A stretch of 64,000 bases of DNA from Methylocystis sp. Sn-Cys. Lineage in GTDB: Bacteria > Pseudomonadota > Alphaproteobacteria > Rhizobiales > Beijerinckiaceae. Positions 13,636 to 31,970 of this stretch are shown one piece after another (position 1 is the stretch's first letter; every line of letters begins with the position of its first letter). The stretch is from positions 62,001 through 126,000 of the forward strand of contig NZ_JAERVJ010000006.1 in NCBI RefSeq assembly GCF_016745395.1. Direction: 5' to 3'. The notes under the pieces were generated by a model. The model was not told the origin of the DNA, searched no databases, and saw only the letters and a program-made list of their open reading frames with translations. The translations under genes were made by a program, and so were the position numbers.

Positions 13636-13739
13636 CACGGCGTTTCATTGCTTCGCCCCCCACTAGCGGTCGGCGCCGCCTTGTTTGAAATTCCCTTGGC
13701 ACGAGCCGGCAATACGGTCCTCTGCTCCTCCCCGCGATA

Positions 13740-13771
13740 GACAGCGCACGTTCTCCCAGGCGTGCGCTGTC
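13740..13771 (+). promoter_or_regulatory. perfect 11-base inverted repeat 55 bases upstream of xoxF
   Basis: GACAGCGCACG and CGTGCGCTGTC flank a 10-base loop, ending 54 bases before the xoxF ATG. There is no U-run after it. It may be a stable 5'-leader hairpin or a binding site for a dimeric regulator; lanthanide- or methanol-dependent control is speculation. Confidence 0.55.
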
Positions 13772-13825
13772 GATCCATCTGAGAGAGAGCCGCTTTCAAA
13801 AGATGCCGGGCCATGGAGGAAAGCC

Positions 13826-15724
13826 ATGAACAAGTTCTTGGTGTCGTCGTCTCTTACAATGCTGGCGCTCGCTTTAAGCAACGACGTATGCGCCGACGAG
13901 TTGCTCGAGCTGCAAAAGGACCCGACACAGTGGGTGTCGCCCACGGGGGATTACGCCAATCTCCGCCATTCGGCCCTCAAGAAAATCACGACGGAAAACG
14001 TCGGCAAGCTCGTCGTCGATTGGCAGTTCTCGACCGGCGTATTGCGGGGCCATGAAGGCGCCCCGCTGGTGATCCATAACATCAAGATACCTGCCGAGGA
14101 AAAGGACGGCGTGGTCGTCAAGCAAGCTTACACGACCGACGTCATGTATCTGCATACGCCTTTCCCCAATGTCGTCTACGCCCTCGACCTTAAGGACCGC
14201 GACCACAAGATCATTTGGAAATATGCGCCGCAGCAGGACGCCTCGGTCATTCCGGTGATGTGCTGCGACACCGTGAACCGCGGCCTCGCCTATGGCGACG
14301 GCAAAATCTTCCTGGCGCAGGCCGATACGACGCTCGTCGCTCTCGACGCCGCGACAGGCGCTTCGTCGGGCGCGACCAAAGACAAGCCGATCTGGTCGGT
14401 TAAATTCGGCGATCCTTCGAAAGGCGAAACGTCAACCGCCGCGCCGCATATTTTCAAGGATAAGGTTGTCGTCGGCAACGCCGGCGGCGAATATGGCGTG
14501 CGGGGCCAGATCAGCGCCTATGAAATCAAGACCGGCAGACTGATATGGCGCGGCTATTCGACGGGTCCGGACAGCGACACGCTGATCGACCCTGAAAAGA
14601 CGACGCATCTCGGTAAGCCCGTGGGCAAGGACTCCGGGATCAATAGCTGGCAGGGCGATCAGTGGAAGTTGGGTGGCGGAACGACCTGGGGGTGGTACAG
14701 CTATGATCCGGAGCTGAACCTCATTTACTATGGCACGGGCAATCCTTCGACCTGGAATCCGTTGCAGCGGCCCGGCGACAATCGTTGGTCCATGACGCTA
14801 TGGGCGCGCGATCTCGACACCGGCAAGGCGCGTTGGCTCTACCAGACGACCCCCCACGACCAGTGGGACTATGACGCCGTCAATGAGCTTCTGTTGGTCG
14901 ATCAGGAGATCGGCGGGAAGAAAGTGAAGACGGCTGTCCACTTCGACCGCAATGGTTTCGGCTACACTCTCGATCGCGTCAACGGCGATCTGCTCGTTGC
15001 GGAAAAATTCGATCCGGCTGTCAATTGGGCGACCAGGATCGACATGGACAAATCGTCGAAGACCTACGGCCGGCCAATTCTCGACGAAAGATTTTCGCCC
15101 GAAAAGAATGGCGAAGACGTGACGACGCAAGGCGCCTGCCCGACGACGCTCGGCTCCAAAGACGAGCAGCCCGCGAGCTACGACCCGAACACGGGGCTTT
15201 TCCTTGTTCCGACAAACCATGTCTGCATGGATTTCGAGCCGTTTCGCGTGAGCTACTCGGCTGGTCAGCCCTATGTCGGCGCCTCGGTGGAAATGTTCCC
15301 TGCCGACCGCGACAAGGGGCAGACGCACACGGGCAATTTCATCGCCTGGGACGCCAGGAAGGGAAAGATCGTGTGGTCGAATAAGGAGCAGTTCTCCGCG
15401 TGGTCGGGGGCGGTCTCCACCGACGGCGGCGTGACGTTCTACGGCACGCTCGAAGGCTATCTCAAGGCGGTCGACACCAAGACCGGCAAGGAGCTCTACA
15501 AGCACAAGACGCCTTCCGGCATCATTGGCAATGTCATCACTTATGAGGTCGAGGGGAAACAATATGTCGCGGTGTTATCGGGCGTCGGCGGTTGGGCCGG
15601 CATCGGCCTCGCGGCCGGTCTGACCAAGAGCAACGACGGTCTTGGCGCAGTCGGCAATTATCGCAGCCTTTCCAATTATACGGCGCTCGGCGGCGTGCTG
15701 ACGGTCTTCTCGATAAGGGAGTAA
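13826..15724 (+). CDS. xoxF: XoxF-type lanthanide-dependent PQQ methanol dehydrogenase
   Basis: The 632-residue preprotein starts at 13826, where GGAGGA lies seven bases upstream and a signal peptide ([23 protein letters not shown]) follows. Visible features are the adjacent cysteines Cys146-Cys147 in [13 protein letters not shown], repeated beta-propeller W motifs, and the active site [11 protein letters not shown], where Asp348 is catalytic and Asp350 is the extra carboxylate diagnostic of lanthanide rather than calcium enzymes. It oxidises methanol in the periplasm with PQQ. An insertion of about 20 residues (near 86-107, containing KIPAEEKDG) and another near 184-190 set it apart from the XoxF5 pattern I know, so the clade is open. 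No xoxG or xoxJ gene is adjacent. A terminator follows. Confidence 0.93.
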
Positions 15725-16646: not shown

Positions 16647-17093
16647 GGCGAGACCAAACGCAAAAATGAAGCCGCCCAAAGGAGCGGTCCAAGTCAGAGC
16701 CAGAGAAGCGATCTCCGCGCGCGCGCGAGAACTGAGTGGCCGGTCGCCGCGGCGCAACTCTGCCAGCCCCGGGCAAAGTTGACGCAATGCTGCGCAAACC
16801 TCTTCACGCCATTCACGCGGAGCGCCCGATCGCCGAGCGCATCCAAATTGAAACCCTTCTCAACTGCTTCCTGTAAGGCTTCCAATAGAGACCTCAAATG
16901 CGTTGACGATCTTCAACGCGTGTCGGATGCTTATCGAGATCGATAGCCAATTTCAGCTTAGAGAGCATTGAAGATGAATATGGTCTACAGCTCCTCTTAA
17001 CTCTCATCACTCACGCAAAAACCGCTGAACTCGCGTGCCGGCAGCGCAGCCGAACGCAGCGACATTGTCTTGCGCGTTGCACGGAGCGCACAG
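16647..17093 (+). promoter_or_regulatory. upstream region of the siderophore operon with a block shared with hemP
   Basis: No convincing gene lies in this gap. At 16848 TTGAAA and at 16875 AAGGCTTCCAAT recur with identical 27-base spacing upstream of hemP (31690 and 31717), followed in both by GAGAC and a later GCRTTGAC. The string ATTGAAACCCTTCTCAA (16847-16863) resembles the Irr-type iron control palindrome TTTAGAA-N3-TTCTAAA. An iron-responsive promoter for the operon is the natural reading. Confidence 0.5.
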
Positions 17094-18110
17094 ATGATTC
17101 CGAATTTATGTTCTTTCGTTGGTGACACGCCTCTCGTGGAGCTGGAAGTCTCTTTCGACAATGCGGCGATCAGGTTGTTCGCCAAGTTGGAAATGTTCAA
17201 CCCCGGAGGCAGTATCAAGGATCGTCCGGCCTTGTTCATGATCCGACAAGCGATGGCTGACGGCAAAATCACTGGAGCTAGCCATTTGGTCGAGAGTTCG
17301 TCCGGAAACCTCGCCATCGCCATCGCAATGATCGCGCGACAGATGAAGCTGGAGTTTACGGCCGTCATCGATCCAAACATCACGAAAAACAACCGCGAGC
17401 TGATCGAGACTTACGGAGGCAAAATCGAACTCGTCGATGAAAAGGACGAAGAAGGCGGCTATTTGCAATCGCGAATTTGTCGCGTACGCCGACTTCTGGA
17501 CGAACTACCAAACGCCGTCTGGCTGAATCAGTACGCCAATCCAGACAACCGACGATCTCATTACGAAGGCGTCGGAGCGGAAATTGTAAGAGACATGCCG
17601 GTCGAGCCGACACACGCCTTTATCGGCGTCAGCACATGCGGAACGATCATGGGGGTAGCACGTCGACTACGCGAAGCATGGCCAACCGTTCGTATCGTGG
17701 CCGTCGATGTCGTCGGCTCCGTCATATTCGGCTCTCCAGGTGGAAAGAGACGGCTTCCGGGCATCGGCGCCAGTCGTGTTCCAGAACAGCTCGATACGCG
17801 CGAGATCGATGAGGTCGTCTATGTGACCGATTGGGAGTCTATCTTGGGTTGCCATCGGCTCGTTCGCGAAGAAGGACTTCTTGCGGGCGGCTCCTCGGGC
17901 TCGATTATCGCAGCAATTGAAAAAATGGCCCCTCGCCTTCCGCGGGGCGCTGTCATCGTGACGATCATGCCCGATCGCGGCGAGCGTTATCTCGACACCG
18001 TCTACAATCGTAACTGGCTCTCTGAGAGCGATCGTGTGCGGCGACCACTCGACGAGTCGCACAGAGTCCTCGCCAAGTTCCGCGAACTGCAAAGCGTCAA
18101 CCGATCTTAG
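17094..18110 (+). CDS. sbnA: SbnA-like PLP enzyme, N-(2-amino-2-carboxyethyl)-L-glutamate synthase
   Basis: The 338-residue protein is a cysteine-synthase-fold PLP enzyme: Lys42 in NPGGSIKDRPA is the Schiff-base lysine, SSSGNLAIA is the substrate-binding loop, and GGSSGSI is the phosphate-binding loop. The ATG at 17094 is chosen because GGAG lies seven bases upstream; a TTG at 17070 is possible but lacks a site. In staphyloferrin B biosynthesis SbnA joins O-phospho-L-serine and L-glutamate to make ACEGA, which SbnB then oxidises to L-2,3-diaminopropionate and 2-oxoglutarate. The neighbour 39 bases downstream is SbnB-like, which favours this role over cysteine synthesis. It is the first gene of the operon. 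Confidence 0.9.
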   Translation: MIPNLCSFVGDTPLVELEVSFDNAAIRLFAKLEMFNPGGSIKDRPALFMIRQAMADGKITGASHLVESSSGNLAIAIAMIARQMKLEFTAVIDPNITKNNRELIETYGGKIELVDEKDEEGGYLQSRICRVRRLLDELPNAVWLNQYANPDNRRSHYEGVGAEIVRDMPVEPTHAFIGVSTCGTIMGVARRLREAWPTVRIVAVDVVGSVIFGSPGGKRRLPGIGASRVPEQLDTREIDEVVYVTDWESILGCHRLVREEGLLAGGSSGSIIAAIEKMAPRLPRGAVIVTIMPDRGERYLDTVYNRNWLSESDRVRRPLDESHRVLAKFRELQSVNRS

Positions 18111-18149
18111 CTGACCAAAAGCATCTTTCTCTTCCTGAGGTCTACAACA

Positions 18150-19193
18150 ATGAGCGCTCTCGATATCGCCCGTCATACGCCGGCGACCACTCATGTATTG
18201 CGTTTTCTCTCTCGCACCGACATCGCTTCTCTCGGCGGCGATCGTTCCGGGCTCTACATGCAAGCGGTGGAAGACGGTTTCCGACTTCATGCCGCGGGCG
18301 ACTATGCACAGCCGCTGAAGCCCTATTTACGCAGCCCCCGTTCCTCCCATATCGCCGACCGGATCATTGCAATGCCTGCCTGGATCGGCGGAAACGATCC
18401 GATCGCCGGGCTCAAATGGATCGGATCGAAACACGACAACCCGTCCGCCCGGTCCATCGACCGAGCGAGCGCCGTCATCGTCCTGAACGACCCCAGCACG
18501 CATTTCCCGATCGCAATTCTCGAGGCGGGTCGGATCAGCGCTCTGCGCACTGCTGCTGTAACGGGCGTAGCCTGCCGTCGCCTCGCGAAGCCACTATTCG
18601 ATCGCGTAGCGATTATCGGTTGCGGCCCCATCGGACGCACGCAGATCGAAATGTTCTGCGAGCAATTCCCACACATTCGAGAGATCCGTCTTCACGACGT
18701 CCATGCAGGAAACCTCAGCGAAGGCGTTCAATGGGCGCAAGCCGCGTTTCCCGACGTAGAATTCGTGCCTGTCGAGCAGCCTCGCGCCGCCATTGAGGGA
18801 GCGGACGTGGTGGTGACCTGTACGGTAACCGATCGGCCATACTTGCAATTCGAGTGGCTCTCGCCGGGAACATTCCTCGCCAATGTCTCCATAATGGACG
18901 TGGAGAAAGAAGTCTTCTTGAGGGCGGACAAGGTCGTCGTGGACGACTGGGATCAGTCCAACCGCGAAAAAAAGATCATCAATCAACTCGTCGAGGCGGG
19001 CGCCTTCTCGAGGCGGCAGCTCTATGCGGAACTCGGCGAGATTGTCGTCGGCTCCAAGCCGGGCCGCGAGAACGCCGAAGAAATTATTCTGCTCAACCCG
19101 ATGGGAATGGCGATCGACGACATTGTCTGCGCGCGGGCTATTCTCCGCCGCGCGGAAGCAGAAGACGTCGGAACAATGCTCGATTTGTTTTGA
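18150..19193 (+). CDS. sbnB: SbnB-like NAD-dependent ACEGA dehydrogenase
   Basis: This 347-residue protein belongs to the ornithine cyclodeaminase/mu-crystallin fold. The Rossmann motif AIIGCGPIGRTQIEMF sits near residues 152-167, and SALRTAAVTGVA just before it is characteristic of the family. SbnB oxidatively hydrolyses ACEGA to L-2,3-diaminopropionate and 2-oxoglutarate, giving two building blocks of staphyloferrin B. The start at 18150 follows CTGAGG, a moderate ribosome-binding site. It is 39 bases after sbnA and eight bases before the first NIS synthetase gene. Ornithine cyclodeaminase is the alternative by fold alone, but operon context makes SbnB much more likely. Confidence 0.9.
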   Translation: MSALDIARHTPATTHVLRFLSRTDIASLGGDRSGLYMQAVEDGFRLHAAGDYAQPLKPYLRSPRSSHIADRIIAMPAWIGGNDPIAGLKWIGSKHDNPSARSIDRASAVIVLNDPSTHFPIAILEAGRISALRTAAVTGVACRRLAKPLFDRVAIIGCGPIGRTQIEMFCEQFPHIREIRLHDVHAGNLSEGVQWAQAAFPDVEFVPVEQPRAAIEGADVVVTCTVTDRPYLQFEWLSPGTFLANVSIMDVEKEVFLRADKVVVDDWDQSNREKKIINQLVEAGAFSRRQLYAELGEIVVGSKPGRENAEEIILLNPMGMAIDDIVCARAILRRAEAEDVGTMLDLF

Positions 19194-19201
19194 GGTCGAT
19201 C

Positions 19202-20977
19202 ATGCGCCAACCGCTCATCGCCTCAGCCGACCCTGTGCTCGCGGAGCTTCTGGAACTCTTGTGGACGGAGGACATCGCGGGCTTTCGCTCTCGGATGCTG
19301 GTCGAAGCCCGAGACGGCCGAGCGACTGCCTGCTTGCGCCTCGGCGAGCACGCGCTTTCGGCGGAGTTGGCTTGGGACGCCTGGCGCGAGGAGCTTCGAC
19401 CGGTGGCGGTCTTCGAGCGCTCGTCGGGGGATGTTCGTCGGACACTAAATGCTAGAGATCTGTTGTGGATTGCGCTTTCGAGTCTGAGCGATCTCGATCT
19501 CGCCATACTCGATCGCACCATACGTCAGCTCGACGATAGCGTTCAAAATTTCGAGTTTCTGGAGAAAGCCGCTCCTCGCCTCGAGAATGAGAGCAAGCTC
19601 GCCCTCGCAAAGGGCGACAATTCGATCTGGGAACAGTTAGCGGCGTGGCGCGACAGGCCTTTCCATCCTCTTGCGGGCGGCAGGGGAGGCTGGGGACGGG
19701 ATGAAATCGAATCCTATGGAGCGGAGTTTGGGCGCTTATTTGCGCTGCGTTGGTGTGCGGCGCCGCGTGATCGTATCCGGATGTCTCCCGCGATGGAGCG
19801 TGGAGAGCCGGCGGATTTCATCCTCGACTCACCCCAGGCGGAAGCGTTGACGGAAAAAATGGCGCGAAGCGGCCTTGCGGAGAGTCATATCGCGCTACCT
19901 GTTCACCCTTGGCATTTGGACACTGCGGTCGCTCTGGAATTCACCCCCGAATTAGCCTCGGGCGAGATCGTTGCGCTAGAGTTCATCGGACCTCTCGTTT
20001 CTGCAACGTCGTCTTTGAGAACAGTTGCAATTGCTGCAAATCCGCGTCGCCACATCAAGCTCCCCTTGGATGTCTGTACGCTGGGCGTGCGCCGGCTCAT
20101 GAGCGCTCAGTCGCTTCACAACGGATTGATGGGCGCAGCGCTGCTGGAGCAAGCCTGCTCGCGTAGGCCGATCATTGGTGCGCGGGTTCGGATCGCCGAC
20201 GAAACACGCTTCTGGACTTTCGACGAAGCCTCGCACGACATATTCGCACCACGGACGGCCGTTCTCGGTTGCGCCATTCGCGACCTTCCTGTCTCCGCCA
20301 ACGACACGGCGCTGGTCCCGTTGGCGAGCTTTTCCGTCGCGCCATGTGCGGGATTGCCTCCGGTGATCGAACAGGCGCTCGAGATTCGGCCCGGAACAAG
20401 TGTCGAAGGCTTTCTCGAGGAGCTCTTTCAGCTCGTCATCGGCGTCGCTATCGAGGCGCTGCATTGCGGCTTCATGCCGGAGATGCACGGTCAGAACGTC
20501 CTGATCGAGCTGGTTAGGGGGCAGCCTACCAGGATCGTGCTGCGCGATCACGACACGGTGCGCTGCCTACCGGAATGGCTGAGGAGAGCGGGCCTTCAGC
20601 CGCCGGCCTATCTGATCAAAGATCCCCGCCGCGCGACCATGCTCCTGGAGCGCCCGGAGAGCCTGATCGCCTATGCGCAGACACTGCTGTTCGATGTCGC
20701 CCTGCGTGCGATCTGCGAAGCGATCGATCGTTCGGGGCGTCTCGAGCTTCACGCCTCGAAGCGCCTCCTCCGGCGCGTCACTACGCGGGAGATCGAGACG
20801 CTGGAGGCGCCGCCAGATATACGCGAGCGGCTGAGAACCGCTTTTCTCGATGATCGAGAATGGCCTTTCAAGCAGATTTTGACTCCTCTTCTCGCAACCA
20901 CGCAACTCGGCCTCGGCATGCCAAGTGCGATCGGCCGGGCGAAAAACCCGCTCGCGAATCCGGAGCAGGCCGCATGA
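19202..20977 (+). CDS. sbnC: NIS siderophore synthetase, SbnC position (IucA/IucC family)
   Basis: The 591-residue protein starts at 19202, eight bases after sbnB. Family signatures include LPVHPWHLD, IKLPLDVCTLGVRRL, EMHGQNVLIEL and LRDHDTVRCLPEW, which form the ATP and citrate binding core and C-terminal FhuF-like part of NIS synthetases. NIS enzymes adenylate a carboxylate and join it to an amine. By position it corresponds to SbnC, which performs the last condensation with 2-oxoglutarate. One oddity: the N-terminal basic motif (HPxxKxRxGF in typical members) reads HPLAGGRGGW here, with the lysine lost, whereas both other synthetases keep it. It overlaps the exporter gene by four bases. 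Confidence 0.87.
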   Translation: MRQPLIASADPVLAELLELLWTEDIAGFRSRMLVEARDGRATACLRLGEHALSAELAWDAWREELRPVAVFERSSGDVRRTLNARDLLWIALSSLSDLDLAILDRTIRQLDDSVQNFEFLEKAAPRLENESKLALAKGDNSIWEQLAAWRDRPFHPLAGGRGGWGRDEIESYGAEFGRLFALRWCAAPRDRIRMSPAMERGEPADFILDSPQAEALTEKMARSGLAESHIALPVHPWHLDTAVALEFTPELASGEIVALEFIGPLVSATSSLRTVAIAANPRRHIKLPLDVCTLGVRRLMSAQSLHNGLMGAALLEQACSRRPIIGARVRIADETRFWTFDEASHDIFAPRTAVLGCAIRDLPVSANDTALVPLASFSVAPCAGLPPVIEQALEIRPGTSVEGFLEELFQLVIGVAIEALHCGFMPEMHGQNVLIELVRGQPTRIVLRDHDTVRCLPEWLRRAGLQPPAYLIKDPRRATMLLERPESLIAYAQTLLFDVALRAICEAIDRSGRLELHASKRLLRRVTTREIETLEAPPDIRERLRTAFLDDREWPFKQILTPLLATTQLGLGMPSAIGRAKNPLANPEQAA

Positions 20978-22140
20978 GCGCGTCTCTTCTGAGCTCCCGA
21001 CACGCTTCGCTTCTCCTCGTGCAATTCCTGACGGCCGCCACCCCACTCGCCGTTATCCCGTTCCTCTCGTTGCAGTTGGAGCAACTGACGCGAGGTCGGA
21101 CAGCGGAGGCGTCTTTCTGGACCGCGGTGGCGGCTGCCGCGCCCGCAGCGACAGCGGTGGTTGCGACACCGTTGTGGAGTCGTTTCGCGCGCGGGCGGGA
21201 GGTATCTCTGCTGCTATCTTCGACCTGCGTGTTGACCGCCGCGAGTTACGTAACCATGGCCATCGCGGATGGCGCCGCGACTTTCGCGATCGGTCGCGCT
21301 CTGCAGGGCGCCGCCGGCAGCAGCATCATCCTGCTGCTCGCCATCGACGGCTCGAGCGCGCGTCCCACGCGCGGCTATATCGACTTACAGCAAGCATTCT
21401 CCGCAGGCTGCTGTGTCGGGCCCATTCTCGGCGGATGGGCTTTCGCGCATCAGCGCCTCTCGGTCTTATTGTTTTTCGCCGCCGCCGCTCTTGTCGCGCT
21501 CGCGACCGCCTGCGCCCTGCTCTTCCGGAGCGCCTACTTCGATCCACCGCAACGACGCGAAGGCGAGACCCAATTGTCCGAGTCGGTCTTTGCACTTGGC
21601 GGTCGCAATCGCGTCCTGATCGTCGCCGCCCTGTTCGGAACGGCTGGCGCTTTCGGCTTCATTCCTTTTTTCGCCGAGTGGGCGATGAGGCGAGACGCCG
21701 CCCGTCTCGACTCGAGCGCCGCAGGCATGGTCCACGCGTCGGCCTGGTTAGCCGCGATGATCGTCCTCCCCATTTGGAGCCGAGTCATCGAAAGCGTGGC
21801 GGCGACCCGTTCGATCGCGTTTTCACTGTTGGGGACGTCGGCGGCCTGCGCAGCGCTGTCCCTTTCAGCAACCACGCCCTGGATTATCGCTTTTCGCGTC
21901 GCGCACGGAGCCTTTCATTCTGGGCTCAATCCGGCCGTCTACGCCGGCGTTCGCCAATCGGACGAAGGAGTCGGCGAACTCGCCTCGGCCCGTACTGCTG
22001 TGACCTTGGGGCAGATTCTCGGGCCTGCGCTATGCGGCGCCGTCGTTCCCTTTGCCGGCGTCGATGGCGCGCTCGCGCTCGCTGCGGGGCTTCCCGCCGT
22101 TGGACTGCTGGTTCTCCTCAGCGTGCGAGGCGATCGATGA
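20974..22140 (+). CDS. sbnD: SbnD-like MFS siderophore exporter
   Basis: This 388-residue protein has about twelve hydrophobic helices and the major facilitator organisation, with a basic loop (LWSRFARGREVSLL) after the second helix corresponding to MFS motif A. It starts inside the stop of the preceding synthetase gene (ATGA) and its own stop overlaps the next start, so translation is coupled on both sides. SbnD exports staphyloferrin B from the cytoplasm; the same fourth position in the operon supports that role here. The protein alone would only be called an MFS transporter. The C-terminus is short and basic (LLSVRGDR). Confidence 0.85.
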   Translation: MSASLLSSRHASLLLVQFLTAATPLAVIPFLSLQLEQLTRGRTAEASFWTAVAAAAPAATAVVATPLWSRFARGREVSLLLSSTCVLTAASYVTMAIADGAATFAIGRALQGAAGSSIILLLAIDGSSARPTRGYIDLQQAFSAGCCVGPILGGWAFAHQRLSVLLFFAAAALVALATACALLFRSAYFDPPQRREGETQLSESVFALGGRNRVLIVAALFGTAGAFGFIPFFAEWAMRRDAARLDSSAAGMVHASAWLAAMIVLPIWSRVIESVAATRSIAFSLLGTSAACAALSLSATTPWIIAFRVAHGAFHSGLNPAVYAGVRQSDEGVGELASARTAVTLGQILGPALCGAVVPFAGVDGALALAAGLPAVGLLVLLSVRGDR

Positions 22141-23855
22141 CGACCACGAGCGAAGAACCTGCGGCCTTTTGGGACCGTCTGGAACGAAACCGGCTGATCA
22201 ACACCTGGGTGCGAGAGAGATGCCCAGAGCTTGCCGCGAGGATGGCGGAGAGATCCACAGAGGCGGCGGCAACCGTCTGGGAGATTCCTCTCGGCCGCCA
22301 ATCCCTGCTCGCCGTCTGCGGACGCTACTCGCCAGGCGGATTCCACGATTGGAACGCGGTTCGGCTCCATGACTCTCGGACGAGCGCAGATCAAATCGCG
22401 CCGTTCGATCTCGCCCGCCTCATGCTTGACTCGCTCGGCGATGGAACAGCAGACGCGAGAAATCAAGCCTGCGAACGGATTCTTCATTCGATCGAATCGA
22501 GCCGCAACCACGCCACATTTCTCTCGAAACAGGAGCTAGTCTCTTGTGCAGAGCAAGCCGAGCGCAGTCTTTGGTTCGGACATCCTTTCCATCCACTCGC
22601 AAAGAGCATCCTCGGTTTCACGTCGAACGATTTCGACAGATACGGGCCCGAACGGCACGCGCGATTTCAGCTCTGCTGGCTTCTGGCGAAACCCGATCGG
22701 GTCGAGAGCTACGGTTGCACGCCAGAGTCGATGTCGAGCGCCGACGCCGTTCTGACCGCGGCGTCCGGATTGAGCACGAGTGTGATCGCCGGACGGACGC
22801 TCATTCCCTGCCATCCTTGGCAGGCCGAACGGCTCAGGAACATTCCGCATATTCGCGACGATTTGGATTCGGGAACATTGTCGCTTCTCGGTCCGTCGGG
22901 CGACGTCTCCATACCGACCTCCTCGGTGCGGACCGTTTGGTTCAAGGAGCGCAAACTTTTCGTCAAACTTCCTCTCGAAGCTCGCATCACCAATTTCTCA
23001 CGCGTGAACACCGCAGAGCAGTTGGCCCGCAGCATAGCTGGGGCGCGCGCGATCACGGCGGCCGCAGAGCAGGTGCGCGCAGCAGGGCTCTCCATTCTGC
23101 GGGAGGCAAGCGGACGAATCCTGCGCGACCGGCGGGATTCTCGCCGCACCTATCCCGAGACTGGCTTTCTCTTGCGATTGGCCGACTTCGACGAAGGCGC
23201 CGATCCGATCGTCGTCGCCGGTTTCGTGGAGCGCGATCCCCGCACAGCTCGTCCGAATCTGTCCGCCATCGCAGGACAGCATTTCGATGGACAGCAACGG
23301 ACATTCGAGTGGGTCGAAAGATACATGGAGGTCGTTCTGCTTCCACTCGTCAGGCTGTTCGCCACGACAGGTCTCTGCCTCGAGGCGCATGCGCAAAACA
23401 GCCTCGTCGGTTTCGAGAGGGGCTGGCCACGGCGCCTTTTCGTGCGCGATCTTGAGGGGGTCGCCGTCGATCGCGCGGTTTTCCAGCGCGCCTGTCCGTC
23501 CGTCGTCGATCTTGACGAAGCCTTGTTCTACGAGCGCGACGTGGTTCGTCGACGTTTTCTCTATTACGTCATCGTCAATCACGTCGCGCACGTCTTATCC
23601 GTCGTCGCGGAGCTTTCCGGCATGAGGGAGGAAAGCCTATGGGCGGCGAGTCGCAGTGTGCTCGAGAAGGAAGCGGGCGCAGCCCGAACAATTATCGAAG
23701 AGATTCTTTCCGCGCCTTTCCTGCCCGCCAAAGCCAATCTCATGAGTTGCGTCGCCGGACGCGGTGAAACGCCAGATTACGTGATGATCGCCAATCCGTT
23801 CACCGCCGGATGCGCCAGTATTCGTCCTAGAAATCTCGAAGAGGCTTCGCCATGA
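22137..23855 (+). CDS. sbnE: NIS siderophore synthetase, SbnE position (IucA/IucC family)
   Basis: The 572-residue protein overlaps the exporter stop by four bases. Signatures are GHPFHPLAKSILGF with YGPE following, LIPCHPWQAERL, VKLPLEARITNFSR, and CLEAHAQNSLVGFE with FVRDLEGV near residue 425. These are the ATP-binding and acid-binding regions of NIS synthetases. In the staphyloferrin B pathway SbnE condenses citrate with the first L-2,3-diaminopropionate in the cytoplasm. The Gly-Phe/Lys signature is intact, unlike in the synthetase two genes upstream. Assignment to SbnE rather than SbnF rests on gene order, since the subtypes cannot be separated by eye. Confidence 0.88.
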   Translation: MTTTSEEPAAFWDRLERNRLINTWVRERCPELAARMAERSTEAAATVWEIPLGRQSLLAVCGRYSPGGFHDWNAVRLHDSRTSADQIAPFDLARLMLDSLGDGTADARNQACERILHSIESSRNHATFLSKQELVSCAEQAERSLWFGHPFHPLAKSILGFTSNDFDRYGPERHARFQLCWLLAKPDRVESYGCTPESMSSADAVLTAASGLSTSVIAGRTLIPCHPWQAERLRNIPHIRDDLDSGTLSLLGPSGDVSIPTSSVRTVWFKERKLFVKLPLEARITNFSRVNTAEQLARSIAGARAITAAAEQVRAAGLSILREASGRILRDRRDSRRTYPETGFLLRLADFDEGADPIVVAGFVERDPRTARPNLSAIAGQHFDGQQRTFEWVERYMEVVLLPLVRLFATTGLCLEAHAQNSLVGFERGWPRRLFVRDLEGVAVDRAVFQRACPSVVDLDEALFYERDVVRRRFLYYVIVNHVAHVLSVVAELSGMREESLWAASRSVLEKEAGAARTIIEEILSAPFLPAKANLMSCVAGRGETPDYVMIANPFTAGCASIRPRNLEEASP

Positions 23856-25684
23856 CCCCATGCGAACCGAGCTATGCCAGGGCGCATGATCAAATCGATC
23901 TTGGCGCATGGGCGGCGGCCGGCCGTCGAGTCGTCTCGCAATTGCTGACGGCCCTCGTGAACGAAAGCCTCACGCCCTACTGCGCGGTTTCGATCGAGCC
24001 GGTCAATTCCCGCGAAGTGGAAGTCGTTCTGGACGTCCTTCCGGGAGCGCTTCGCTATAGGATGCGGGCGCGTCGTGCGCTCGCCTACGATCGCCTGTTG
24101 GTCATAGAGGACACGGTGCGCAGAATATCGGACACAGAGCAGAACCTCCCCGGTCCGATGCGTCTGCTGACCGATCTTTTTCCAGCGCTTCCAGGAACGC
24201 GGGAGGCCCGAACGCAGTTCGTAGAAGAAATTCTCCGTACCTGGTCGAACCACGCACAATCGCTCTGCTTTGGCGCGGCCAGAGGCGCCAAATTATTGGC
24301 GCTTCCGTTCGAGGAGGCAGAGAGCGCTCTGACCGATGGGCATCGGCTCCATCCATGCTTCAAATCCCGCATCGGCTTCTCGCCCAGCGACAACCTTGCT
24401 TACGGACCCGAATTCGCTAACGCCGTCCGACCGGTTTGGCTCGCCGTCCATCCGGAACTGGTAGCGAGCCGCGCTATTCGCACCGGGCAGGACCAAGATC
24501 ATGCCATTATCGCTGCGTCGATCGACGAGGCGAGCAGGCGAGAATTCGCCGCCGTGCTCACCAGCATGGTCGACGAGCCAAGCGCCTACCACTGGCTGCC
24601 CGTGCATCCCTGGCAATGGGAAAGGATTGTGGAAGCGGGAACGGTTGCGCCGAGGGCGGATTCGCGCATCGTCCTCCTTGGGAGATCACAGCGCCGATAT
24701 CTGCCTCAACAGTCGATCCGCACGCTGTCGGATATAACCGAACGTCACGCGCCGTCTCTGAAACTCGCTCTGTCCATACGCAACACGTCGACGGCGCGGA
24801 CACTCGCGCGCCATACGGTCTTGAACGCACCGATCGTCAGTGAATGGCTGAGAAACATCGCATTCTCGGATTCCTTCCTCAGCAAAACGGGAGCAATTTT
24901 TCTCATGGAACATATGGGCAGCGCCGTTGCTTTGCCGAGAGATGACGATCCGGCCGGAGGACTGACCGGCGCTCTGGCGGCGATCTGGCGCGACCCCATC
25001 GGAATCTTTCTTGCCGAAGACGAAGAAGCCGCGCCTTTTTCGGTGCTCACCCATCTCGATCACGACGGCCGGCCGGCAATTGAGGACTGGATTCGGCGAC
25101 ATGGCGCGCAAGCATGGACATCGGCTTTGCTCCGTGCGGCGATGCTTCCGGTGGTCCATCTGCTTCTCGCTCGCGGGGTCGCCCTCGAGAGCCACCAGCA
25201 GAACATGATCTTGGTGCATCGCGAGGGATGGCCGGTCCGCGTTGCGCTGAAGGATTTCCACGACGGCGTTCGGTTCATCCCGAGCAAGCTCGATGCGCCG
25301 CGCCCGAACCTCGCCCCGACCCCTGTCGAGCATGCGCGCGTCAATCGCAATTCCTATGTGGAGGCGAGCGATCCCGAAGACGTGCGCGACTTCATGTTCG
25401 ACGCTCTGTTCGGCGTCAATCTCGCCGAACTCGCCTTGTTCCTCGACCGCCACTTCGATTTCGACGAACAGCGTTTCTGGCTGCTGGCGATCGATATGCT
25501 TCGAAAATATCTGTCGGAAAACGACAGCGCGCGCGCTGGCGTGAAGACGTTTCGTTTTCTCGATCCGTCGGTCGCTGTCGAAGATCTCGCGCGGCGCCGT
25601 CTAGAGCCAGACGCCACTTCGGGAAGGCGCGCACGCAATCCTCTCGTCGGTCTGAACGGCGACGTCGTCGGGATGTTCTCGTGA
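23852..25684 (+). CDS. sbnF: NIS siderophore synthetase, SbnF position (IucA/IucC family)
   Basis: The 610-residue protein begins in the stop of the previous gene (ATGA). It has the full set of NIS motifs: GHRLHPCFKSRIGFSPSDN with YGPEF, LPVHPWQWE, LKLALSIRNTSTAR, LESHQQNMILV and LKDFHDGVRF. It is the most canonical of the three synthetases here. SbnF in staphylococci joins a second L-2,3-diaminopropionate to the citryl intermediate (the decarboxylation by SbnH comes in between). A GTG start of the next gene lies within its stop codon, so the operon continues without a gap. The position-based name is inference; the family assignment is firm. Confidence 0.9.
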   Translation: MTPCEPSYARAHDQIDLGAWAAAGRRVVSQLLTALVNESLTPYCAVSIEPVNSREVEVVLDVLPGALRYRMRARRALAYDRLLVIEDTVRRISDTEQNLPGPMRLLTDLFPALPGTREARTQFVEEILRTWSNHAQSLCFGAARGAKLLALPFEEAESALTDGHRLHPCFKSRIGFSPSDNLAYGPEFANAVRPVWLAVHPELVASRAIRTGQDQDHAIIAASIDEASRREFAAVLTSMVDEPSAYHWLPVHPWQWERIVEAGTVAPRADSRIVLLGRSQRRYLPQQSIRTLSDITERHAPSLKLALSIRNTSTARTLARHTVLNAPIVSEWLRNIAFSDSFLSKTGAIFLMEHMGSAVALPRDDDPAGGLTGALAAIWRDPIGIFLAEDEEAAPFSVLTHLDHDGRPAIEDWIRRHGAQAWTSALLRAAMLPVVHLLLARGVALESHQQNMILVHREGWPVRVALKDFHDGVRFIPSKLDAPRPNLAPTPVEHARVNRNSYVEASDPEDVRDFMFDALFGVNLAELALFLDRHFDFDEQRFWLLAIDMLRKYLSENDSARAGVKTFRFLDPSVAVEDLARRRLEPDATSGRRARNPLVGLNGDVVGMFS

Positions 25685-26487
25685 CCGCGCGGCTGAGGCT
25701 GCGAAGCCTGCTCGATCAGGGCCAGCCCGCCGGAGGGCTTTTCCTTTCCCTGCCCGCCCCTCAAATCATCGAGATCGCCGCCGTCGCAGGATTTGATTTC
25801 GTTCTGATCGATCTGGAGCACACGCTGATCGGCGGAAGGGAGCTGGAGGAGCTGATCGCCGCGGCCGATCGCTCGGGAATAAGCGCTTTGGTGAGAGTGG
25901 CGGATGCGCGCTCCGAACGTATTCTTCCGGTCCTGGACGCGGGAGCGGCCGGCATCGTAGTCGCGCGCGTCTCGAGCCTCGAGGACGCGAGAGAAGCGAT
26001 TCGCCGAGCGCGCTACGCCCCCTTGGGGAACAGGGGATTGAATGCCGGCCGGCTCGGGCGTTTTGGAGACTGCGACCTGCCCGCGCTTCTTCGGCAACTC
26101 GATCGGGAAACGCTCCTGATCGCGCTCATAGAGGATGCCGTCGGCCTCGCCGCCGCCGAAGAGATCGCTTCTCTGCCCGGGCTCGACGGCCTGCTCCTCG
26201 GAGCCGCCGATTACTCTCAGTCGATTGGCGTCCCCTGGCAAACCACAGCGGAGCCCGTTCGGGCGGCGGACCGACAACTCGCCGCGATCGCCCGTCGAAC
26301 CGGCCGCTATTTCTTTGCAATTCCGCGGCGCGACGAGGATGTCGTCGATCATCTCCGCGACGGCGCGCTCGGAATCATCGCCGGCAATGACCGTGGCGTT
26401 CTGCGGCAGGCGCTTTCGTCCAAAGACCGCCTCTGGCGCGAGATTTACCGCAGGCAAGAATTGCAAGAATTGGAAGCAGGAGAATAG
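25681..26487 (+). CDS. sbnG: SbnG-like citrate synthase (HpcH/HpaI aldolase fold), GTG start
   Basis: The frame starts with GTG at 25681, overlapping the preceding TGA (GTGA); no ATG occurs near the N-terminus. The 268-residue product has the HpcH/HpaI aldolase fold features: FDFVLIDLEHTLIGG near residues 38-52, ALVRVADARS, and LIALIEDAVGLAAAEEIAS. SbnG is a metal-dependent citrate synthase of this fold that supplies citrate for staphyloferrin B independently of the TCA enzyme. A 2-dehydro-3-deoxy-glucarate-type aldolase is the alternative by fold, but the place between SbnF-like and SbnH-like genes points to SbnG. The stop is seven bases before the sbnH ATG. Confidence 0.87.
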   Translation: MTARLRLRSLLDQGQPAGGLFLSLPAPQIIEIAAVAGFDFVLIDLEHTLIGGRELEELIAAADRSGISALVRVADARSERILPVLDAGAAGIVVARVSSLEDAREAIRRARYAPLGNRGLNAGRLGRFGDCDLPALLRQLDRETLLIALIEDAVGLAAAEEIASLPGLDGLLLGAADYSQSIGVPWQTTAEPVRAADRQLAAIARRTGRYFFAIPRRDEDVVDHLRDGALGIIAGNDRGVLRQALSSKDRLWREIYRRQELQELEAGE

Positions 26488-26494
26488 AGGACGA

Positions 26495-27712
26495 ATGACC
26501 GCCTTCGCTCCATCCCTCGAAATGATAGAACATCTGGTCAGCCGCGACCGTCCGGTGTCGGCCTTCATCCATGATCTCGACGCGCTCGATCGTCACGCGC
26601 GTCGGCTCGTATCCGCTCTGCCGCCGGGGGCCGATCTTTTCTACGCGATCAAAGCGAACAGCGATCCGGCCATACTGAGAACATTGGCGCCGATCGTCGC
26701 CGGCTTCGAGGTCGCCTCGGCCGGAGAAATCCGCAAAGTGCGCGAGGCGATCGGGGACGACGCCCGCATCATTATGGGCGGGCCGGCGAGAACCGCCACG
26801 GATTTCGCCGCGGTCATCGACCATGTCGTCGAACGCGTGCATATCGAGAGCATTCATCTTCTCCATCTCGCCAACGCGGTGGCCGAGGCCAGGAATACGA
26901 CGCTTCCCATTCTCCTTCGCGTGAATCTGTCAGGTCCGGTTCCCGGCGCGACGATCACCATGGGCGGACGGCCGACCCAGTTCGGAATAGACGAAGCCGA
27001 GATCGACGAAGCCGTCGCCGCGCTCGCCGCCTGTCCGCATCTGCGCTTCGACGGATTTCATCTTCACACCGTATCCAACAATCTCGACGCCGATACTCAT
27101 GCAGATTTCTGTCTCGAGGCTCTATCGCGAGCGAGGCGCATCGCCGATCGTCACGGGCTCGATCTCCGCGTCGTGAATCTCGGCGGCGGTTGGGGCGTCA
27201 ACTATGCCAGGATAGACGCTCTTTTCGATGTGGATTGCCTCGCCGGGCGCCTGCGAGACGCGCTGGAGCCGGGTGCGCCGCAAATTCAGTTCGAGTGTGG
27301 GCGGATCGTCGCAGCCTATTGCACTGTCTATGTGAGCGAGGTCGTCGACGTCAAAACGAATCATGGAAAGGCCTTTGCGCTCCTGCGCGGCGGTTCCCAT
27401 CATTTCCGCCTGCCCTCGGCGTGGCGCCACAGGCACCCATTCATCGTCATTAATCGGGAGAACTGGCCATGGAAATGGCCAAGGCGCGCCCATACGGATT
27501 GCCTGGTCACCGTGACTGGAGAGCTCTGCACGCCAAAGGACGTGCTGCTCGATGCAGAACCTCTTTCCACTTTGCGCATAGGCGATCTCGTCTGTTTCCT
27601 CTTGGCGGGCGCCTATGGCTGGGACATTTCGCACCACGATTTCCTCAGCAATGCTCATCCGGAAAGGATATTTCTGCCCGCTCGGCAGGCCGGCGGGGAC
27701 AAGGAAAGGTGA
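26495..27712 (+). CDS. sbnH: SbnH-like PLP-dependent decarboxylase
   Basis: This 405-residue protein is a fold-III PLP decarboxylase of the Orn/DAP/Arg family: Lys53 in LFYAIKANSD binds PLP, DGFHLHTVSN (His) stacks on the cofactor, VVNLGGGWGV is the phosphate-binding glycine loop, and GELCTPKDVLL supplies the active-site cysteine. SbnH decarboxylates the citryl-diaminopropionate intermediate to the ethylenediamine unit of staphyloferrin B. AGGAG precedes the ATG at 26495. The gene follows sbnG by seven bases and is followed by sbnI after four. Diaminopimelate decarboxylase (LysA) is the nearest alternative; the length and operon place favour SbnH. Confidence 0.9.
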   Translation: MTAFAPSLEMIEHLVSRDRPVSAFIHDLDALDRHARRLVSALPPGADLFYAIKANSDPAILRTLAPIVAGFEVASAGEIRKVREAIGDDARIIMGGPARTATDFAAVIDHVVERVHIESIHLLHLANAVAEARNTTLPILLRVNLSGPVPGATITMGGRPTQFGIDEAEIDEAVAALAACPHLRFDGFHLHTVSNNLDADTHADFCLEALSRARRIADRHGLDLRVVNLGGGWGVNYARIDALFDVDCLAGRLRDALEPGAPQIQFECGRIVAAYCTVYVSEVVDVKTNHGKAFALLRGGSHHFRLPSAWRHRHPFIVINRENWPWKWPRRAHTDCLVTVTGELCTPKDVLLDAEPLSTLRIGDLVCFLLAGAYGWDISHHDFLSNAHPERIFLPARQAGGDKER

Positions 27713-27716
27713 ACAT

Positions 27717-28226
27717 ATGAGAACGCAGAACATTCGCCTCCTCTCGCCCTTGGAATTGAAGCCGCATGAGCAGACCGACAGTTGCCGCGTTCGCCATGTG
27801 ATCGGTCTCCTCCTGCGCGAGCAGGCATGGACGCGCCCCATCTGTGTCGAGGCGACAAGCCTTTGCGTCATGGATGGCCACCACCGGCGCCTCGCCGCCA
27901 TCCATTTGGGGCTCGCCGCGGTCCCCGTGATCGCCTTCACCTATGACGAGATCCGGCTCGGAAGCCGACAGCCGGGCATGAGCATAGGGCCGGAGGAATT
28001 GATCGATTGCGCAATGCGAGGGCGTCTCTTCCCGCCCAAATCCACGCGCCACGTCTTTCCGCCGTTCCAAACGGATGCTATCCCGCTCGCAAAGCTTCTC
28101 TCCTCGCCGGCTCGCCTCAGAGCATGTCCGGAAGAGAGCCCAAGTTACCGGAGACACGTTGACGCGAGTTGGAATTCGCAAGCCTCCGAGCGCGCCTCTT
28201 GTTTCGCCACATCACAAAGCCCGTGA
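27717..28226 (+). CDS. sbnI: SbnI-like ParB-fold serine kinase, C-terminally short
   Basis: The 169-residue product has the ParB/SerK nucleotide-binding core: LLSPLELKPHEQTD near the N-terminus (the HE glutamate is the catalytic position in SbnI/SerK) and CVMDGHHRRLAAI. SbnI makes O-phospho-L-serine for SbnA from serine and ADP, and in staphylococci also senses haem. S. aureus SbnI is about 254 residues; here the frame ends early and the last 36 residues are read antisense to the 3' end of the convergent PepSY gene, with no family resemblance. The C-terminal domain therefore seems lost, leaving the catalytic core. The start at 27717 is four bases after sbnH. Confidence 0.8.
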   Translation: MRTQNIRLLSPLELKPHEQTDSCRVRHVIGLLLREQAWTRPICVEATSLCVMDGHHRRLAAIHLGLAAVPVIAFTYDEIRLGSRQPGMSIGPEELIDCAMRGRLFPPKSTRHVFPPFQTDAIPLAKLLSSPARLRACPEESPSYRRHVDASWNSQASERASCFATSQSP

Positions 28227-29310
28227 CGAACAGCACGAGCGGCGCAAAGCCGGATGCGAATGCCGCCAGACGGCCAAGCGCTCCGAAAGTGGCGCCGTTG
28301 TGCAACCAGAGCTGTTCAGTAACGTATCGATCGCCCGCCGACATAACATCCGAGGTGCGAGCGTGAACGATGTCGCCCGTCCAAGGGTCGAGCCAAATCG
28401 CCCCCCGTGAACGCAGGGCCGGATCGGCTCCAGCCGGACGGAACAACACTCGCCAGGTGTTGCGCGATTCGGTCGGAGGATTGAGGAGCGCGATGTTTGC
28501 ACCCGGTTGCGCGGCGCGCGCGCGCGCGAGGATTTGATCAGCGGAAAGTTTGCGCGCGTTCTTGTCCAGCGGCGTTGCGACCTTCGGCGAGGGATAGGGC
28601 GTGGCGATCGAGATCAGGCCGATCACCGGCCGCATGACGTCGGGAAAAACGATTCCCACGCCGGTAGCTGCAATCATCGCCAGCGCAGGCAAAGTCCACG
28701 CGCCGGCCGCATTGTGAATGTCCACGACAAAACGCTGCGGCGAAACGCCTTTGCGGAGAGACATCGAGCGCCAGACGCGCCCCGGCCGCGGCCACCATAA
28801 GTATAGCCCCGACAGGGCCGAGCAGAGCAGACAGAGACCCAGGACGCCGACGAGCTCCCTCCCCCACCACTCGCGCAGCAATAGCGAGGAGTGCAATCGG
28901 TAGATCGTGAACGCGAACGCGTTCGTATAGTCGCGCCTCCCGAGGACCGCGCCATTCGAGGGGTCGATCATCGTGGTCCAGAGGTCCGAATGAGGCCCCT
29001 TGCCGTGCGCATGAATCGCAATCCAAACGGGCCAGGTCGTGTCGGGCGCGATGATGGATGTGATCGGCGCCGGGTCGGCCGCAGCCGCCGCTTGCATCGC
29101 TTCGGCGGCCGTAACATTGCGTTCGGAGCCGAGTGGATTGTAGAGCGCCGGATTCAGCGCAGCGTCGATCTCGCGGTAGAAGACGTTGAAGCTGCCGGTG
29201 AGACCGATGAGAACGAGCAGAGCGCCGGCGACGAGCCCGATCCATCTGTGCAGCAACATGAACGCCCCGCGTAAACGGTGCGTCCATGCGGCTGCAGAGC
29301 CAGTGATCAC
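28117..29310 (-). CDS. PepSY-associated membrane protein, probable siderophore-iron reductase
   Basis: This 397-residue inner-membrane protein has four main hydrophobic segments and histidines in or next to them (LLHRWIGLVAGALL, IYRLHSSLLL, VVDIHNAAGAW, LWLHNGA), the pattern of PepSY_TM proteins such as FsrB/PiuB that probably bind haem and reduce ferric siderophores. The start is a GTG at 29310, supported by GAGGAAG seven bases upstream. It lies 15 bases after the receptor gene on the same strand, so the pair are co-transcribed and act on the same ligand. Its 3' end overlaps the convergent sbnI frame by 110 bases. Reduction of the siderophore made by the adjacent operon is inferred. Confidence 0.83.
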   Translation of the reverse strand: MITGSAAAWTHRLRGAFMLLHRWIGLVAGALLVLIGLTGSFNVFYREIDAALNPALYNPLGSERNVTAAEAMQAAAAADPAPITSIIAPDTTWPVWIAIHAHGKGPHSDLWTTMIDPSNGAVLGRRDYTNAFAFTIYRLHSSLLLREWWGRELVGVLGLCLLCSALSGLYLWWPRPGRVWRSMSLRKGVSPQRFVVDIHNAAGAWTLPALAMIAATGVGIVFPDVMRPVIGLISIATPYPSPKVATPLDKNARKLSADQILARARAAQPGANIALLNPPTESRNTWRVLFRPAGADPALRSRGAIWLDPWTGDIVHARTSDVMSAGDRYVTEQLWLHNGATFGALGRLAAFASGFAPLVLFVTGFVMWRNKRRARRLANSNSRQRVSGNLGSLPDML

Positions 29311-29325
29311 GGAAGGCTTCCTCTC

Positions 29326-31524
29326 TCAGAAGTCCACGGTGGTCGAAACCAGGAACGTGCGAGGCGCGCCTGCGGTGAGAAGACCACGTCCGGTCGTCGC
29401 CCAATAGTTCGTGTCGAGGACATTCTCGACACTCAGGCGAAGCGTCACCGGCCGGCCCTCTAAGTCGATAGTGTAGCGCCCACCGAGGTCCAGCCGCGTC
29501 CAGTCTGGTATGCTCTGCGTGTTGGCCTGATCGTAAAATTGGGACGAGGTGTAGATGACGCGGCCGGTGAGCGTCGCAGTTCCCGGCGCCGACCAGAACG
29601 GCAGGTCGTATTCGCCGTATAGGTTGAGCTGCACGTCCGGGACACCGGCGGCGGTCTTGCCATTATTGGTTCCGCTGGCGGTCTTCGTCAGCACGCCGTC
29701 GAGCAGGGTGACGCCGCCGAGAAGACGCACTCCCGGCAAAGGCTCGCCGAAGATATTGAACTCCAGACCGCGATTGCGCTGCTCGCCATCGACCGAGAAA
29801 CGCCGGGTCGTCGGATCGGTAAAGCTGCTCGGCTGCGTGATGTCGAAGGCGGCGAAGGTCAGTCCCAGAACTCCGAAGTCGTATTTCGCCCCGACCTCGA
29901 TTTGCCTCGCTATGAACGCCGGAAACGCCTCGCCGGCGTTCACCGCATTCACCGGCGCAATGCCCCCCGAGGTCAACCCTTGAATATAGTTCGCATAGAG
30001 CGACAGATTCTCGATCGGTTTCACCACCAATCCCGCCGCCGGGCTGAAAGCCTGATTTGTGGAGCTAGACGCGATCAGTCCCGTATTGGCGTTGTAATTT
30101 TTGACGTCGATCTGCTGCCAGCGTCCGCCCAGGGTGAGGAGCGCCCTGTCGTCGAAAGCCGACAATGTATCGGCGATCGCGACGCCGCGATTCATGCGCG
30201 CGGCGGTCCGCGGCGCGTCTCGCGGTAAACCGAAATCGCTTCGCGCAGGAACATAGAGAGGAACAAAAATGTTCGAGGTGATCGCGCGGCCGACGGTCGA
30301 GTTGGTAATCCCCGTGTCTTGCCACAGACCGACAGCAGAAGCTGCGAGCTGATGCTTAATCGGACCCGTCTCGAAGCGGGTGCGCAGACCAATGTCGGTC
30401 GTATTGCTCTGCACGTCCTGCGGCGTGAGAGTGGGCGTCGTGCGAAAATCGCCGCGCGCGTTGACTATCTGCAACACTCCTCCGAAGAACAGCTCGTCGA
30501 ACCGGGAGTGGCCGAACGCCGCGTAAACGGTGGCGTTTTCCGATACGTCATATTCGGCGCGCAATGCGCCGTGCCAATGGTGGGCGTTATAATATTCCCA
30601 TGGCTGCTGCGGGTTGATGACAAGCGATGGCGAACTTGGAATCGGAAAGCCGGTCGATACGGTTTTTTGCCGCGTTGGCGCGTCGAGATCGCGCCCCTGG
30701 AGTTCGAGATCGGTGGTAACGCGCAATCTGTCGCCACGGTAGTCTAGAGCCAGCGCTGCGACCCCGAACTCTTCGCCTTGGAAGTCGATCGGCGTGCTGC
30801 CCTTGCGATAGGCGCCATTGAAGCGGATGCCCCACTCGTTATTTGGACCGAAACGGCGGCCGACGTCCACATGTGTGCCGAGCTGTCCGCGGGACGCGAA
30901 GCTCGTCGTAACGCGCGTGATTGGCGCGTCGGTCGCCCGTTTGGGAATGAGGTTGATCGCGCCGCCGATTGTTCCGAGCGGCGGCACGCCGTTCAAAAGA
31001 GCGCTCGGCCCTTTGAGAACCTCTATTCGTTCCATCGGCTCGATCGCCTGGCTGCGCCAATCGGCGACGCCATAGAGACCGTCGATTGCAAAGTCGCCGG
31101 CGAATACCGGAAACCCCCGGACCAGAAATCCATCGATTCCGCCATATCGGGGCGCGTTTGTGCGGATCGAGGAATCATTGTCGGCCACATCCGTCACGGT
31201 TCGCGCCTGCTGATCGCGAACGAGCTTTTCCGTATAGCCGGTAAGGCTGAACGGCGTGTCGAAGACATTGCGGTTGCCGAGCACACCCAAGCGAGCGCCG
31301 CTGCCGACCAGACCGCCGGCGTACGGCGCAGGCGGCTGCCCGATCACGCTGGTTGGCGGGGATTTACCGGCGGACGGACGAGGCGCCTCTCGCGTGCTGG
31401 GCGTCGCCGCTTGTATGTCGATGGTCGGTAAGGCTTGTTGCGCGTCGGCCGGCAATGCGCTGCAAGCGGCGATGAACAACAAAGAAGCAGCGCCGCGTGG
31501 CGCGTTGTGAGATATGCCACTCAT
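29326..31524 (-). CDS. TonB-dependent ferric siderophore receptor (receptor 1)
   Basis: The 732-residue precursor has a signal peptide (cleavage near ADAQ), a TonB-box-like LPTIDI, an N-terminal plug with ERIEVLKGPSALLNG and GGAINLIPKRA near residues 167-200, and a beta barrel ending in LVSTTVDF with a terminal phenylalanine, all typical of outer-membrane siderophore receptors of the FhuA/FecA class. It imports a ferric siderophore using TonB energy. It is followed by the PepSY gene and lies next to the sbn-like operon, so that operon's product is the obvious ligand, though unproven. The region upstream carries a palindrome and a repeated leader also found upstream of receptor 2. Confidence 0.92.
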   Translation of the reverse strand: MSGISHNAPRGAASLLFIAACSALPADAQQALPTIDIQAATPSTREAPRPSAGKSPPTSVIGQPPAPYAGGLVGSGARLGVLGNRNVFDTPFSLTGYTEKLVRDQQARTVTDVADNDSSIRTNAPRYGGIDGFLVRGFPVFAGDFAIDGLYGVADWRSQAIEPMERIEVLKGPSALLNGVPPLGTIGGAINLIPKRATDAPITRVTTSFASRGQLGTHVDVGRRFGPNNEWGIRFNGAYRKGSTPIDFQGEEFGVAALALDYRGDRLRVTTDLELQGRDLDAPTRQKTVSTGFPIPSSPSLVINPQQPWEYYNAHHWHGALRAEYDVSENATVYAAFGHSRFDELFFGGVLQIVNARGDFRTTPTLTPQDVQSNTTDIGLRTRFETGPIKHQLAASAVGLWQDTGITNSTVGRAITSNIFVPLYVPARSDFGLPRDAPRTAARMNRGVAIADTLSAFDDRALLTLGGRWQQIDVKNYNANTGLIASSSTNQAFSPAAGLVVKPIENLSLYANYIQGLTSGGIAPVNAVNAGEAFPAFIARQIEVGAKYDFGVLGLTFAAFDITQPSSFTDPTTRRFSVDGEQRNRGLEFNIFGEPLPGVRLLGGVTLLDGVLTKTASGTNNGKTAAGVPDVQLNLYGEYDLPFWSAPGTATLTGRVIYTSSQFYDQANTQSIPDWTRLDLGGRYTIDLEGRPVTLRLSVENVLDTNYWATTGRGLLTAGAPRTFLVSTTVDF

Positions 31525-31556
31525 GAAATGCGAACCCCAGCTCTGTGCAACAATTT

Positions 31557-31778: not shown

Positions 31779-31970
31779 ATGACGAATTTCAACGATCATC
31801 CGACAAAGCGGAATCCCGATCCGCAGCAGGCTTCAAAAAGCCGAGCCGTGACTCGCGAGCACCATGCGAGCGACCTCTTGGGCGAGAAAAAGGAAGCCAC
31901 GATCATCCACGCCGGAGAGCATTACCGCCTCCGCATTACTGCGAACAACAAGCTCATTCTGACCAAATGA
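31779..31970 (+). CDS. hemP: haemin uptake protein HemP
   Basis: The 63-residue protein ends in the diagnostic HemP core: LLGEKKEATIIHAGEHYR followed by LRITANNKLILTK, covering residues 33-63 to the C-terminus. HemP is a small cytoplasmic protein found at the head of haem and siderophore uptake operons in proteobacteria; in some species it activates receptor genes. It is divergent from receptor 1 and precedes tonB and the transporter on the plus strand. The first 30 residues are hydrophilic and unconserved. A 33-codon frame ending in the hemP start (ATGA overlap at 31780) precedes it, but I cannot say it is translated. Confidence 0.9.
   Translation: MTNFNDHPTKRNPDPQQASKSRAVTREHHASDLLGEKKEATIIHAGEHYRLRITANNKLILTK

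Follow-up and report, generated by a model that had tools for sequence, protein, structure and literature searches.

The 64 kb stretch of Methylocystis DNA analysed here (the window) very probably carries a plasmid-borne siderophore system of the staphyloferrin B type, a reading that draws on the observed gene content, gene order, orthology, phylogeny and plasmid location and on the predicted fold of SbnI. Full-text literature searches returned no report of a staphyloferrin B system in a methanotroph, Methylocystis included, in agreement with a preliminary description of this DNA. The same description named staphylococci and Ralstonia/Cupriavidus as the known carriers, a list that was incomplete because a cluster from Methylobacterium aquaticum 22A, with demonstrated roles in iron and lanthanide acquisition, has been published (Juma et al., 2022; PMC9301485). 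The operon is ordinary in its chemistry and informative in its location, and what stands out most is the compact SbnI at its end. It is a concrete candidate for an iron siderophore of a type II methanotroph; earlier literature describes enterobactin-like genes in M. hirsuta and different siderophore clusters in M. trichosporium OB3b.

Operon content and predicted pathway

Nine plus-strand genes spanning 17094-28226 follow the order sbnABCDEFGHI (Table 1), as established from open reading frames, Pfam and NCBIfam roles and PDB matches; the nine-gene set, the roles and the A-I order described earlier are all borne out by these data. The order is identical to that of other sbn operons, and chance is excluded as its cause. 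Four-base overlaps, previously said to form most of the junctions, are present at half of them (C/D, D/E, E/F and F/G, four of eight), and the remaining four junctions are gaps of 39, 8, 7 and 4 bases.

Table 1. Genes of the sbn locus and its surroundings in the window, with the evidence for each assignment.
Feature	Position	Strand	Assignment and evidence
XoxF-type methanol dehydrogenase (context only, outside operon)	13823..15724	+	best PDB 6oc5/6dam XoxF; WDYD motif
sbnA	17094..18110	+	PLP enzyme; TIGR03945 432.6 bits vs cut-off 349.95
sbnB	18150..19193	+	dehydrogenase; TIGR03944 379.9 bits vs cut-off 326.9
sbnC	19202..20977	+	NIS synthetase; IucA_IucC + FhuF; NF033583 266 bits; best PDB 7cbb; SbnC clade
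sbnD	20974..22140	+	MFS exporter; MFS_1; position kept in most colinear operons
sbnE	22137..23855	+	NIS synthetase; IucA_IucC + FhuF; SbnE clade 99/99 vs AcsD-type
sbnF	23852..25684	+	NIS synthetase; NF033586 422 bits; SbnF clade
sbnG (GTG start)	25681..26487	+	HpcH-fold citrate synthase; best PDB 4tv5/4tv6, E 6e-52
sbnH	26495..27712	+	PLP decarboxylase; best PDB 6knh, E 1.4e-105
compact sbnI (169 aa)	27717..28226	+	predicted ParB-fold free serine kinase; SerK motif match, AF2 model
PepSY-associated TM protein	28117..29310	-	so annotated in homologous plasmids
TonB-dependent siderophore receptor	29326..31524	-	TIGR01783 365.7 bits vs 223.5
hemP-like small gene	31779..31970	+	plasmid annotation; boundaries from sequence; right end of two-plasmid block

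SbnA and SbnB, the pair that would supply L-2,3-diaminopropionate (L-Dap), both scored above their NCBIfam equivalog cut-offs. The staphylococcal SbnC model was matched over most of its length, at a score below the model's "exception" cut-off of 700 bits, and the SbnF match likewise lay below an "exception" cut-off of 900 bits; SbnE gave a weak match to the SbnF model and none to an SbnE model. In the PDB search SbnG hit 4tv5/4tv6 far ahead of other HpcH proteins. These entries have generic names, and we take them to be Staphylococcus aureus SbnG, with 6knh as SbnH and 7cbb as SbnC. By homology, then, SbnG is a predicted citrate synthase and SbnH a predicted citryl-Dap decarboxylase. In a synthetase tree of 90 rows, from which two mis-split rows (Herb_fusN and Nocardiop_fusN) were removed afterwards, SbnC, SbnE and SbnF of the window each fell in their own ortholog group with Staphylococcus. 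Together with the SbnA/SbnB scores and the gene order, these groups support the staphyloferrin B-type assignment made in the preliminary description.

The individual reactions, the roles in export and import and the identity of the product are all read here from the named homologs. Compact SbnI would convert serine to O-phosphoserine, which SbnA would combine with glutamate to give ACEGA, the first step to L-Dap, and the dehydrogenase SbnB would then free L-Dap and 2-oxoglutarate. With SbnG making citrate, SbnE would condense citrate with Dap, SbnH would decarboxylate the SbnE product (citryl-Dap), SbnF would join citryl-diaminoethane to a second Dap, and SbnC would perform the last condensation, with 2-oxoglutarate. 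The sbnC mutant of M. aquaticum still grew (PMC9301485), suggesting that this last step may be dispensable for function. SbnD would export the siderophore, and the TonB-dependent receptor and PepSY membrane protein would re-import its ferric complex.

The receptor beside the operon is probably the cognate siderophore receptor: it is kept adjacent to sbn in several genera, and the receptors in this position in Methylobacterium, M. suflitae and the second plasmid copy described below are 61-95% identical to that of the window. The PepSY gene also adjoins the receptor in M. suflitae and in the second plasmid copy, and its product is predicted to be an inner-membrane ferrisiderophore reductase or uptake partner. 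No iron-responsive site was recognised upstream of sbnA, where we found neither a palindrome conserved between copies nor a sigma-70-like site. Two more TonB-dependent receptors are encoded on the same plasmid segment, at 37796-40015 (minus strand) and 47310-49622 (plus strand).

Relatives, plasmid setting and transfer

The whole window is colinear with a plasmid of the methanotroph Methylocystis iwaonis SD4 (NZ_CP143315; 97.3-98.6% DNA identity), which makes the host a Methylocystis, and the presence of a repC gene on the same contig indicates that the plasmid is of the repABC type. One genome of the same species holds two sbn copies, which match plasmids pSS37A-Re-1 and pSS37A-Re-2. The second copy has only positions 16950-32122 in common with the window, a block of 15.2 kb at 90% identity that runs from sbnA through hemP, and the flanks of this block are unrelated between the two plasmids. 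It is this block, from sbnA through the PepSY gene and the TonB receptor to hemP, that moved between plasmids.

The A-I order was also found in M. suflitae, in Agrobacterium and Rhizobium plasmids, in a Kiloniellales MAG, in two Methylobacterium and in Nitrosospira, Burkholderia and Collimonas, and the A-H order in Herbaspirillum, Prauserella and Staphylococcus agnetis, so that colinear operons extend across Alphaproteobacteria, Betaproteobacteria, Actinobacteria and Staphylococcus. An operon tree was built from seven concatenated proteins (A, B, C, E, F, G and H; 3062 columns), with Betaproteobacteria represented by Collimonas, Herbaspirillum, Burkholderia and Nitrosospira in place of Ralstonia and Cupriavidus. 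Branches supported at 100/100 set apart three groups, namely Actinobacteria, Betaproteobacteria and the eight rows from Alphaproteobacteria, and Methylocystis was nested inside the last of these, not near Staphylococcus. The window operon therefore belongs to the alphaproteobacterial branch of a widespread sbn family, and it is a real but expected member, since the family is widespread and already known in a related methanol-eating bacterium.

Strong SbnC matches occurred in four of 199 family genomes (two of them of this species) and, counting the genome of the window itself, in two of 397 order genomes. This patchy distribution and the plasmid locations point to horizontal spread among Alphaproteobacteria, and together with the two-plasmid block they make transfer as a unit within that class well supported. 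The preliminary description had taken conserved order as implying such transfer across phyla; at that scale the claim is not supported by the tree, in which the operons cluster by class. Recent transfer from Staphylococcus, in particular, is unsupported by the concatenated tree, though the gene order is common across phyla.

The nearest relatives outside Methylocystis are the operons of the Agrobacterium/Rhizobium plasmids (L008-L010) and of the Kiloniellales MAG (L014), which carry the full A-I set, compact SbnI included, at 41-74% identity; the Agrobacterium/Rhizobium clusters have an ABC-type iron-siderophore importer in place of the PepSY protein. The M. aquaticum 22A cluster is likewise an alphaproteobacterial sbn cluster with an adjacent TonB receptor in a C1-utiliser, and it makes a hydroxycarboxylate siderophore (PMC9301485). 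There SbnE and SbnF are fused and no sbnI was reported, whereas the window has separate E and F and a compact sbnI. Two other Methylobacterium loci (L015 and L016) combine the E-F fusion with compact sbnI, and their sbn-adjacent receptors are 61% identical to the window's. The staphylococcal operon has genes A-H in the same order (in S. agnetis, where the locus ends soon after H) and the same predicted chemistry, but the window proteins are 24-54% identical to it, uptake is of the Gram-negative kind (TonB receptor, PepSY), and SbnI lacks about 100 middle residues.

A compact SbnI

The terminal SbnI has 169 residues in the window and 128-174 in the alpha- and betaproteobacterial homologs examined, compared with 240-254 in the staphylococcal SbnI chains in the PDB. 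The last gene had been described as a ParB-fold serine kinase; its fold and motifs agree with this, and the full-length SbnI architecture of about 240-254 residues gives way to a compact form. The gene is missing from the plasmid gene tables, but every copy retains an uninterrupted reading frame. Compact homologs close the alpha- and betaproteobacterial operons, Herbaspirillum being the sole one without a match.

Residues E18, DGHHR (53-57) and TRH (110-112), in window numbering, are conserved in eight homologs. An AlphaFold (AF2) model had block means of 88-98 pLDDT for residues 11-130; its superposition gave Z 18.0 and an rmsd of 1.6 across 128 residues of archaeal SerK (5x0k), and Z 16.9 for S. 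aureus SbnI (5uje). The extent of the 128-residue superposition indicates that compact SbnI lacks some 100 residues from the middle of the chain. E18 aligned with SerK E30, a residue mutated in several SerK structures in the PDB, and the assignment of the catalytic glutamate rests on these mutants. SerK, staphylococcal SbnI and the compact protein thus have in common a ParB-like kinase fold, the predicted catalytic glutamate and the DGHHR and TRH motifs, and differ in length and in the middle region.

SbnI relatives were found in seven other genomes among 385 class genomes, none of which had SbnC at E 1e-40. An SbnA-like PLP enzyme lay within 5 kb of the relative in four of the six genomes inspected (G785, G616, G874, with two copies, and G809), and none was found within that distance in G577 and G641. 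These neighbours, by guilt by association, and the motifs and modelled fold suggest that compact SbnI acts in the O-phosphoserine step, making it a small candidate enzyme for that reaction and an under-described component of sbn systems. Its presence questions the claim that alphaproteobacterial sbn clusters are without a serine kinase; the M. aquaticum cluster was described as lacking sbnI, yet has a hypothetical gene at its distal end (PMC9301485), the position that compact sbnI occupies in the Methylobacterium loci L015 and L016.

A separate cluster (L127 3581-13323 and L128) encodes a TonB receptor, a PLP decarboxylase, an SbnA-like enzyme, a compact SerK/SbnI, an octopine-type dehydrogenase, one IucA/IucC synthetase and an MFS exporter, and looks like an NIS metallophore cluster with an opine-type dehydrogenase.

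Product, metal and the methanol dehydrogenases

Given the low identity to the S. agnetis proteins, the operon could make a molecule related to staphyloferrin B in which a single building block is replaced, for instance by a different keto acid or amine. Divergence is greatest in SbnC, SbnD and SbnE (24-31% to S. agnetis), and SbnE has a long alphaproteobacterial branch (1.42), but the precursor enzymes A, B, G and H are all kept, with SbnA and SbnB above their equivalog cut-offs, and the M. aquaticum mutant is rescued by Ralstonia solanacearum carrying sbn genes, suggesting similar products (PMC9301485). We consider an altered product unlikely.

It is comparably doubtful that the siderophore is used chiefly as a lanthanophore, solubilising lanthanides for plasmid and chromosomal XoxF with iron as a secondary cargo. 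The idea arises from the xoxF gene, with a lanthanide-type DYD motif, 1.4 kb upstream of sbnA, and from M. aquaticum, which dissolves La2O3 with its sbn siderophore and depends on this compound when it grows on methanol through XoxF; the sbn promoter of that species, however, responds to iron and not to low lanthanide (PMC9301485). Moreover, the xoxF neighbourhood is confined to one near-identical plasmid lineage, which leaves a lanthanophore role possible: the moved block excludes xoxF, the second plasmid copy on pSS37A-Re-2 (L007) has no xoxF at all, and the M. suflitae contig has none in the stretches examined. A xoxF-sbn functional unit conserved across genera was not found among the sbn loci compared. 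In the window, a divergent DhaR-like regulator and an ExaC-type acetaldehyde dehydrogenase gene precede xoxF (10790-15724), possibly forming an alcohol-oxidation module.

A bolder proposal, which we advance tentatively and hold to be improbable as a whole, is that the proteobacterial sbn operons close with an overlooked minimal serine kinase of about 130 residues, which provides O-phosphoserine for SbnA-type enzymes across metallophore clusters of several kinds, and that in this Methylocystis the siderophore also supplies lanthanide to the XoxF encoded nearby. If true, one plasmid would combine acquisition of copper (by methanobactin), iron and lanthanide with both kinds of methanol dehydrogenase.

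An MxaF-type methanol dehydrogenase gene (61722-63596, minus strand; calcium-type, WDYAGIN) lies in the window; its counterpart in the SD4 plasmid is the first gene of a full mxa operon. The genome has five homologs of PQQ methanol dehydrogenase, and this one alone lacks a DxD motif, so the MxaF-type enzyme is apparently plasmid-borne only. The fifth homolog, with a DHD motif, is about 12 kb from the IucA/IucC-like gene on contig G000:C4 described below. Just left of the window (G000:C17:58539-59375) is a methanobactin mbnB gene 99% identical to that of the SD4 plasmid, where its neighbour is annotated as a methanobactin precursor domain-containing sigma factor and no separate mbnA is listed. 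Because the plasmid thus also has methanobactin genes, XoxF and apparently the sole MxaF, metal competition could be tested by single-gene deletions.

Returning to the staphyloferrin B-type reading, an achromobactin-type pathway with homologous synthetases, aldolase and decarboxylase can be dismissed as highly improbable: Pseudomonas clusters that, by gene order, we take to be achromobactin clusters have counterparts of E, F, C, G and H, but these clusters are without sbnA and sbnB and differently ordered, and in the SbnE tree a split with 99/99 support set 20 sbn-type rows apart from the 10 rows of AcsD-like and other proteins, which turns against achromobactin the synthetase grouping proposed earlier as a test.

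A cluster in Candidatus Methylobacter oryzae (L086), a gammaproteobacterial methanotroph MAG, has NIS genes resembling SbnF and SbnE, an SbnH-like gene, a TonB receptor and PepSY; no SbnA or SbnB matches were found in it, and its SbnE-like protein groups with AcsD-type proteins. On another contig of the window's genome (G000:C4:29730-30266) there is a weak 410 aa IucA/IucC-like gene.
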